In this document: positions 24,151-25,863 of the stretch, in pieces
How the letters are laid out: every line of letters starts with the position of its first letter
How positions within the stretch are numbered: the first letter of the stretch is position 1
Assembly (NCBI RefSeq): GCF_001641755.2
Contig: NZ_LRFG02000002.1
Coordinates: 372,001-436,000, forward strand
Direction: 5' to 3'
DNA: 64,000 bases
From: Microbulbifer flavimaris
GTDB lineage: Bacteria; Pseudomonadota; Gammaproteobacteria; Pseudomonadales; Cellvibrionaceae
Notes under the pieces: model-generated
The model's input: only the letters and a program-made list of their open reading frames with translations
Databases searched by the model: none
Told to the model about the DNA's origin: nothing
Program-made: the position numbers and the translations under genes

Positions 24151-24726
24151 TCAGACCAGCCAGCCCTCCTGACGCACGTTGGCAAACTGGCCGCGCAGGA
24201 ACTCCATCTGGTCACCGCGGATCCGGTCGCTGTTGATCAGGGCCAGATACTCGGCCGGATTGGGGCAGAACGGCAGGGCCAGCAACTCCATATCGATATC
24301 CTGCAGCAGACGGTTGCCCTTGTGCTGGTTACAGCGGCGGCAGGCAGTCACCACGTTCTCCCACACATCCTTACCACCGCGTGAGACCGGCTGTACGTGA
24401 TCGCGGGTGAGCTCCGCCAGGATGAAATCCTTGCCGCAGTACAGGCAGGTATGGGCATCGCGGAAAAACAGCGCCCGGTTGTTCAGTGGCGGGCGACGGC
24501 GCGGGCGCGCCATGCGCTCACCGCCACAGGCGATGATGGCGGCCAGGTCCAGCGTCGAGCGCTCGCCCAGGCGATTGATACCGCCGTGCACACGCTGCAC
24601 CACACCACCCAGTGACCAGGTCACCAGCTCACGCACATAGAGGCAGGCCGCCTCTTGCCAGTTGAGCCATTCCAGGGGCTGCCCGGCCAGGTTCAGCCGC
24701 AGGATTCTCGCTTCTCTCACTTGCAT
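24151..24726 (-). CDS. HNH endonuclease family protein
   Basis: HNH nuclease-fold protein of 191 residues from the ATG at 24726; a longer frame upstream lacks a ribosome-binding site and crosses a hairpin. The HNH domain (about 95-150) is complete: two CxxC knuckles, TCLYCGKDF and ACRRCNQHKG, and the active-site DHVQPVSRGGKDVWENVV. The N-terminal part (VREARILRLNLAGQPLEWLNWQEAACLYV) is typical of chromosomal HNH proteins common in marine gammaproteobacteria and not tied to phage or restriction modules. Its cellular role is unknown. No methyltransferase or phage gene lies near, so restriction is unlikely. Confidence 0.85.
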   Translation of the reverse strand: MQVREARILRLNLAGQPLEWLNWQEAACLYVRELVTWSLGGVVQRVHGGINRLGERSTLDLAAIIACGGERMARPRRRPPLNNRALFFRDAHTCLYCGKDFILAELTRDHVQPVSRGGKDVWENVVTACRRCNQHKGNRLLQDIDMELLALPFCPNPAEYLALINSDRIRGDQMEFLRGQFANVRQEGWLV

Positions 24727-24816
24727 GTCCGCTACTCCCCGGTTTCCCTGCTCCACGTTAACCGTTTCCCTGCCCGGGCTGTGCGGGCCGGTACAAGGGG
24801 CGCAAAAAGTGCGCGC

Positions 24817-24859
24817 CTGAAAAGCAACAGGGCCCCACCGGTTGACCGGCGGGGCCCTG
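24817..24859 (-). terminator. Strong hairpin upstream of HNH gene
   Basis: CAGGGCCCC (24828-24836) pairs with GGGGCCCTG (24851-24859), with CCGG/CCGG continuing the stem to a TTGA loop. Read on the minus strand it is followed by TTGCTTTTC, a weak T run. It could end leftward transcripts coming from the small-RNA region or act in the HNH leader. Confidence 0.55.
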
Positions 24860-25106: not shown

Positions 25107-25396
25107 AAAAACACCGCCGGGGCAATCCGGCCCGGGCGGTGCGTCTCACAGGATGGTGCCCGGTTCCCTTGGGCAAGTGGCTCAGTCCCTTTGAGCCTGT
25201 CGCTCAATTCCCTTGAGCGTGTAGCTCGTTTCCCTCGAGCTTGCGGCGCAATCCCTATTTCCCTTGCCGCTGTACTGCAGTCCCTTTTGCTTCCGTGCTC
25301 CTTTATCGTCCCTGACGTTTCGCTTCCATGCTTGCCGGCGTCCTTGCCTTGTTTGCTTCCGTGCTTCCTGGCGTCCCTGCCTTTCCGCGTCCTTGC
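25107..25396 (-). ncRNA. CsrB-like small RNA with about 17 GGA motifs
   Basis: Predicted leftward small RNA of about 290 nt. A -10 box GATAAT (25403-25408) sets the start near 25396. A terminator hairpin (CACCGCC 25112-25118 with GGCGGTG 25135-25141) followed on the minus strand by TTTTT ends it near 25107. I count 17 GGA motifs on the minus strand between these points. Several lie in loops of short hairpins whose stems change together: GCTCAAAGGGACTGAGC, GCTCAAGGGAATTGAGC, GCTCGAGGGAAACGAGC. Dense GGA loops, a Rho-independent end and this length are the defining features of CsrB/RsmZ RNAs, which sequester the translational regulator CsrA/RsmA. There is no convincing protein-coding content. 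The family is called by architecture, not by alignment. Confidence 0.82.
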
Positions 25397-25451
25397 AATT
25401 TCATTATCGGCAACCCGGCAGAAGCTGCCAGAGGAAAAAAGCTGAATTTGA

Positions 25452-25469
25452 TGTGCGAAATATCGCGCA
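25452..25469 (-). promoter_or_regulatory. GacA/UvrY-type upstream palindrome for sRNA 1
   Basis: Minus-strand TGCGCGATATTTCGCACA, an imperfect 18-bp palindrome of the same layout as the GacA/UvrY site (TGTAAG-N6-CTTACA). Its centre is about 64 bp upstream of the predicted start of the long RNA, followed by AAATTCAGC, which is also conserved before the second RNA. Confidence 0.65.
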
Positions 25470-25543
25470 GGCTGCGGATATTGGCTTGGCTATACAAGAT
25501 AAGCGGGAGGGTAATACGAGAAGAAAAGCGAGGGGTAAAATGT

Positions 25544-25668
25544 AAAACACCGCCCAGGCAATCCGGCCCGGACGGTGCGTCTCACAGGATGGTGCTCAGT
25601 TCCGTTGAGCTGCGGAGCAGTCCCTTTTTCCCTTGCCGCGGTTTTTGCAGTCCCTTAAGCATCCTTGC
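25544..25668 (-). ncRNA. RsmZ-like small RNA with 5 GGA motifs
   Basis: Predicted leftward small RNA of about 125 nt, the size of RsmY/RsmZ. The -10 box is CATAAT (25675-25680) and the start is near 25668. It shares with the longer neighbour the first bases (GCAAGGA), a GCTCA-loop-TGAGC hairpin with a CGGA loop (25594-25610), the stretch CACCATCCTGTGAGACGC, and the terminator, which again ends in a T run (25544-25547). Five GGA motifs occur before the terminator. The two loci look like a duplicated pair of Csr/Rsm-type regulators. Their promoter faces away from the dehydrogenase gene to the right. Confidence 0.8.
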
Positions 25669-25723
25669 ACCTTCATTATGGACATTAGCGGAAAGATTTG
25701 TAGGGGAAATCGGCTGAATTTCT

Positions 25724-25758
25724 TGTGCGAGATATCTCACAAGGTGGAGACATGTCTC
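25724..25758 (-). promoter_or_regulatory. GacA/UvrY-type upstream palindromes for sRNA 2
   Basis: Minus-strand TGTGAGATATCTCGCACA at 25724-25741, close to the UvrY/GacA binding site, centred about 64 bp upstream of the predicted start, the same distance as for the first RNA. A second perfect palindrome GAGACATGTCTC lies immediately upstream at 25747-25758 and may be a second site. Confidence 0.7.
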
Positions 25759-25863
25759 ACACGAGCCTGGAGGAAGGACGAGGCGACGCCGCATGTGGTA
25801 CAAAAGGCCCACGTCGCGAACGGCCTTACTATAGGCGTAATAATTACCGGATCAACCTTCACC

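Follow-up and report, generated by a model that had tools for sequence, protein, structure and literature searches.

A candidate CsrA-sponging small RNA of Microbulbifer and its expanded tandem paralogue

We have analysed a stretch of 64,000 nucleotides from the genome of Microbulbifer flavimaris (the window), in which two related putative small RNA genes lie in tandem on the minus strand (Table 1). The best explanation for this locus, in which we have high confidence, is that it encodes a GacA-activated CsrA sponge of the Rsm type together with an expanded paralogue of CsrB size. A preliminary description made from the sequence alone had pointed out two related minus-strand loci of about 290 and 125 nt, which we place at 291 and 126 nt. 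Its counts of 17 and 5 GGA motifs are correct when the one in each terminator loop is left aside, and become 18 and 6 with it. The -10 boxes GATAAT and CATAAT and the GCAAGGA starts that it described are present in both genes, and both RNAs begin with TGCAAGGA, five bases 3' of the -10 box (ends predicted). Terminator-like sites were found where it had placed Rho-independent terminators, the 3' ends of the two RNAs having in common the pre-terminator GCACCATCCTGTGAGACGCACCG and the terminator stem (for the long gene the terminator scan scored just the inner part, 25116-25131). Neither gene has a convincing protein frame. The central proposal of that description, a duplicated pair of CsrA-sponging RNAs, appears well supported, and to it we add the upstream palindromes, the conservation and synteny, the candidate partners, and a polarity of the pair in which the short gene is widespread and the long one is found in three genomes only.

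Table 1. Features of the small RNA locus, in positions of the window
Feature	Position	Strand	Remarks
Long Csr/Rsm-type sRNA gene, tandem paralogue of the short	25107..25397	-	ca. 291 nt, 18 GGA; ends predicted
Intrinsic terminator of long gene	25111..25142	-	stem from predicted fold
Four successive 19-nt hairpins with GGA-bearing loop, long RNA	25157..25241	-	
Expanded 5' region of long RNA, degenerate repeats around GCANGGA(A/C)GC	25286..25396	-	TRF periods 8, 16, 33
-10 box GATAAT of long gene	25403..25408	-	
GacA/UvrY-type palindrome TGCGCGATATTTCGCACA of long gene	25452..25469	-	one core mismatch; 43 nt from -10 box
Short Csr/Rsm-type sRNA gene	25544..25669	-	ca. 126 nt, 6 GGA; ends predicted
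Intrinsic terminator of short gene	25547..25578	-	terminator scan
Single GGA-loop hairpin of short RNA, counterpart of the long-RNA hairpins	25594..25610	-	
-10 box CATAAT of short gene	25675..25680	-	
GacA/UvrY-type palindrome TGTGAGATATCTCGCACA of short gene	25724..25741	-	43 nt from -10 box
Degenerate second palindrome TGTGAGACATGTCTCCAC, short gene	25744..25761	-	20 bp further upstream

The strongest evidence comes from the palindromes upstream of the two genes, which the preliminary description had missed. They are 18 bp long, with a core of eight positions (TGT..G......C..ACA). The reported consensus of UvrY sites is TGTAAGN6CTTACA, and the UvrY site of E. coli csrB, TGTGAGAGATCTCTTACA, is nearly identical to the one found here, although its centre lies at -183/-182 (PMC4682653), as against about -64 in the window, counted from the predicted start (25669). 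In the genus, 51 copies from 47 genomes were compared (a set that leaves out G007, found by covariance model R1 alone); the palindrome is present in every one of them with at most two core mismatches, and its distance to the -10 box is 43 nt in 50 and 46 nt in one. At the 43-nt offset all eight core positions are matched in 48 copies and seven of eight in the long gene from the window and in that from genome G035; the last copy is the one with the 46-nt spacing. In many relatives the palindrome reads TGTAAGACATCTCTTACA and fits the consensus fully. The second, degenerate palindrome has at least four of the eight core positions in 34 of the 51 copies, with control offsets averaging 2.1.

We have also scanned the whole genome for this palindrome, allowing one mismatch, and obtained 50 matches, while the reversed control gave 25 (24 places, treated as 30 oriented sites, came with a locus). 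Apart from the two RNAs, the sites richest in GGA were L151 (10 in 150 nt), L157 (7) and L062 (5). All three fall within frames on the same strand that run for 150 codons or more without a stop, and none was kept as a further sponge. At L151 (G000:C1:816640) a palindrome-like site is followed by a very GGA-rich leader whose GGA run leads into the start codon of an open frame, and this leader is a possible mRNA target of CsrA.

Candidate genes for the partners that such RNAs would need are found in the same genome. There is a GacA-like regulator (277.5 bits, below the NCBIfam cut-off of 280; next match 68.6), and the frame 3' of it on the same strand is, as recognised by eye, what we take to be UvrC. 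The best BarA/GacS-like kinase scored 589 bits, below the NCBIfam cut-off of 890, with the next match at 197. A single CsrA gene was found (89.6 bits; Pfam cut-off 27), with a product of 64 amino acids that carries R44, a residue whose mutation is reported to alter the RNA-binding surface of CsrA (PMC7652899). For the relative Teredinibacter turnerae, GacS, GacA and CsrA are named in its genome paper, with no occurrence there of "csrB" or "small RNA".

The short RNA was aligned in 48 copies from 47 genomes, ranging from 124 to 138 nt with frame-breaking indels. All 48 have the CATAAT box, compensatory changes are seen in the terminator stem, and columns with GGA are identical to the window in 90% of cases, versus 69% for the other columns. 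The number of GGA motifs is by itself near chance (6 against a shuffle mean of 3.4, a count that 51 dinucleotide and 69 mononucleotide shuffles reached out of 1000 each) and, because this count is weak, the case for the short RNA rests on conservation and promoter. In the predicted fold three of the six GGA are open at all three bases and the first one is paired. There is also a likeness between the 5' hairpin, GCA-AGGA-UGC, and the SELEX ligand RUACARGGAUGU (PMC7652899).

Counted per 290 nt, GGA motifs are nowhere in the window, on either strand, as numerous as in the long RNA, the next separate peak on the minus strand having 13 and the plus-strand maximum being 12. Its 18 GGA compare with a mean of 10.0 in dinucleotide shuffles, none of which out of 1000 reached this value (4 of 1000 for mononucleotide shuffles), and 15 of the 18 are open at all three bases in the predicted fold. 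Two modules of the short RNA are repeated in it, the 5' GCANGGA(A/C)GC unit and a 3' hairpin whose loop carries GGA, the latter four times in a row at a spacing of about 22 nt. We compared 13 hairpin units, leaving out the third hairpin of G021 (six-base loop) and the short-RNA hairpin of G035 (identical to that of the window). Standard pairs made up 89.7% versus 81.4% in shuffles and covariation was 0.329 versus 0.189, values that none of 500 shuffles reached, while slid versions of the units paired at most 33.8%. Two of the five measures do not exceed shuffles, namely pairs in which both sides have changed (244 of 500) and pair types (119 of 500). Because related units were compared, on a structure of the analyst's own choice, we take the covariation as supportive and not as proof.

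Homologues of the long gene were seen in only three genomes, those of M. flavimaris, M. guangxiensis (G021) and G035, with 18, 18 and 24 GGA and lengths of 291, 306 and 361 nt, respectively. These three genomes group together, with local support of 1.0, in a tree of the HNH and dehydrogenase-like proteins encoded beside the RNAs (46 genomes). The genome of M. hainanensis (G034), placed elsewhere in the same tree, has two short copies in tandem (L008), a separate duplication in which each copy has its own palindrome. Two separate tandem duplications are the simplest account, and loss elsewhere is possible. The long RNA looks like a recent tandem duplicate of the short one in which the hairpins bearing putative CsrA sites have multiplied.

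The short RNA family, judged by sequence searches, is apparently widespread, both across Microbulbifer and in related genera. Scanning named genomes for the 19-mer CATCCTGTGAGACGCACCG gave 27 stretches, of which 26 were from Microbulbifer; the remaining one, from Paraburkholderia, is without palindrome, has 3 GGA in 200 nt and was taken as chance. By BLAST, matches were found in 48 of 116 genomes, i.e., 47 of the 48 of the genus (own genome included) and one elsewhere in the order. The short gene itself could be read from 47 of the genus's 48 genomes. The match elsewhere in the order, 28 nt long and in another family (L051 in G072; E 7e-4), covers the pre-terminator and terminator element only, and the core pattern is absent from it. 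The covariance model R1 matched all 48 genus genomes and 7 genomes of four other genera, 55 of 144 in the family; it understates the spread, because it has no match in G052 and G059 although synteny shows the RNA in both. At E values up to 10 it found three places in the M. flavimaris genome, all at the locus described here, in a search that could miss sponges unrelated in sequence. R2, run on 390 genomes of the order, matched 12, all within the family (10 from the genus and two from its training set); only nine first-look candidates per genome were scored, and the automatic structure of R2 misplaces the terminator of the rows from outside Microbulbifer.

Synteny in related genomes, which the preliminary description had suggested as a check, was found across the genus. 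A PQQ-dehydrogenase-like gene, with weak model similarity below cut-off, flanks the locus in all 47 BLAST-positive genus genomes and an HNH gene does so in 46 of them, within the stretches examined. Both RNAs are co-directional with the HNH gene, which lies downstream, and the dehydrogenase-like gene is divergent. The HNH-endonuclease-like protein (24151-24834, minus strand) has a weak HNH-domain similarity to IscB/Cas9d models, below cut-off, and its gene stays near the small RNA across the genus and in several other genera. We searched for this protein in 26 chosen genomes from other genera of the family and found it in 21, at 28 places. Nine of the 21, from nine genera, have within ca. 1.5 kb upstream of the HNH gene an RNA that combines a palindrome (at most one core mismatch) with TCCTGT and with 4 or more GGA in 150 nt; in the other 12 no RNA with all three was found there. 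Among these 12, g5 has the palindrome and 8 GGA without TCCTGT, and in G179 R1 matches at a distance of 4.4 kb from the HNH gene. In G070 the RNA is at a contig end and the HNH gene starts another contig, so that their linkage cannot be judged. The remaining nine show none upstream of the HNH gene.

It was also claimed in the preliminary description that one RNA is CsrB-like and the other RsmZ-like. This holds for size and architecture only, because neither RF00018 nor RF00166 is matched. The covariance-model search for CsrB and RsmZ that it had suggested went the other way, without any Rfam Csr/Rsm match above cut-off. At gathering thresholds no Csr/Rsm family was found in the window and no family in ten loci of relatives, nor did a permissive search (E up to 10) find a Csr/Rsm family at the locus; as a positive control, E. 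coli csrB scored 380.4 bits against the Rfam CsrB model. Neither RNA exceeds the gathering score of RF00018 (CsrB/RsmB; 71 bits), and in a difference from Pseudomonas RsmZ no match above that of RF00166 (PrrB_RsmZ; 44 bits) exists in 143 genomes of the family. Weak sub-threshold matches to the RsmZ model occur in 9 of the 143 and also in 2 of 14 control genomes. Eight such loci (of 10 places) were inspected and set aside: they lie elsewhere, have 2-7 GGA on the matched strand and show no palindrome in the 250 nt upstream. On the grounds of anatomy and predicted action we class the two RNAs of the window as putative Csr/Rsm sponges; by sequence they belong to no Rfam (Rfam 15) family.

In size class and in its many GGA repeats, the long RNA is reminiscent of E. 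coli CsrB (RF00018), which has about 369 nt as against 291 nt here. The likeness to RsmX, RsmY and RsmZ of Pseudomonas lies in the size of the short RNA, the GacA upstream sequence, the GGA hairpins and the tandem duplication. Tandem duplication of Csr/Rsm genes is already known from published accounts. In P. brassicacearum rsmX-2 is described in tandem with rsmX-1, 75% identical to it, the copies being equal-sized at 111 and 110 nt (PMC7911923), whereas here one copy has more than doubled in length. In Aliivibrio salmonicida csrB3 is reported to adjoin csrB2 (PMC6262261); the csrB genes of Vibrio and Aliivibrio likewise rise in copy number by duplication, but the duplicate described here is also internally expanded. 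The apparent novelty lies in this RNA family, which Rfam 15 does not contain, and in its strongly expanded tandem paralogue. A literature search for Microbulbifer together with CsrB, with most subscription journals outside its scope, found no paper. Such RNAs may have been predicted earlier in relatives, for example by Kulkarni et al. in 2006, whose work is said to deal with the prediction of CsrA-regulating sRNAs.

There are other possible explanations for this arrangement. One would be that the short RNA alone works as a CsrA sponge and that the long copy, a duplicate in decay, is drifting through slippage of its repeats. Its presence in three genomes only, its richness in repeats, its variable length, the core mismatch in the palindromes of the window and G035 and the interrupted T-run 3' of the terminator stem in G035 would agree with decay. 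However, all three long copies keep the 43-nt spacing, the GATAAT box, the terminator stem and at least seven of the eight core positions of the palindrome, and the hairpin stems covary. Positions of GGA also appear better kept than others, clearly in the comparisons with G021 (45 of 51 GGA positions kept between it and the window versus 128 of 188 others, p=0.0024) and marginally between the window and G035 (48 of 51 versus 160 of 189, p=0.056). We consider a decaying long copy improbable.

A cis-acting role of the GGA repeats, as leader or antisense RNA for a neighbour (the HNH gene downstream or the divergent dehydrogenase-like gene), is in our opinion very improbable. In its favour, the RNAs point the same way as the HNH gene and stay near it across genera. 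Against it, intrinsic terminators stand between them and that gene, the RNA of G179 is 4.4 kb away from it, and both the promoter and the GGA anatomy correspond to those of Csr/Rsm genes. That the locus is just a chance purine-rich repeat or protein-coding sequence has a next to negligible probability. It might be suggested by the mechanical open reading frames that overlap both RNAs and by the near-chance GGA number of the short one, and it is largely contradicted by conservation despite frame-breaking indels, by the GacA-type palindromes and compensatory stems, and by the genus-wide synteny.

We thus favour a GacA-activated CsrA sponge and its expanded paralogue, which would act as follows. 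Phosphorylated GacA would bind the 18-bp palindrome 5' of each -10 box and switch on transcription, and each RNA would stop at its own intrinsic terminator. The GGA repeats, in hairpin loops and single strands, would then bind CsrA dimers, so that free CsrA would fall, the protein being sequestered in trans, and its mRNA targets would be freed. The short RNA would be the older, RsmZ-sized sponge, from which a tandem duplication in one Microbulbifer clade presumably produced the second gene. In this duplicate the two kinds of hairpin with CsrA sites would have multiplied, and the result would be a sponge of CsrB size that has about three times as many GGA motifs.

A further-reaching version, which we find unlikely, is that a sponge has been caught in the course of evolution, passing from RsmZ to CsrB size by local repeat expansion, and that it has an AUCCUGU lock. 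Since the hairpins would have multiplied by repeat expansion, the capacity of the sponge might be tunable through the number of repeats. The conserved AUCCUGU 5' of the terminator could pair with the first GGA hairpin, in a lock to be opened by CsrA or another factor. It is an idea only, because folding predicts this pairing (first GGA with UCC above 0.5) in just 24 of the 48 short RNAs and, for the other genera, in 3 of the 9; as a general feature we have rejected it.

For Microbulbifer, and apparently also for related genera, the locus provides a candidate sponge arm of the Gac/Csr system in a form that is unrecognised by Rfam 15. Genomes with a single short RNA, with two short RNAs in tandem, and with a short RNA beside an expanded long one form a natural series in which it may be seen how sponges of Rsm size become CsrB-sized.
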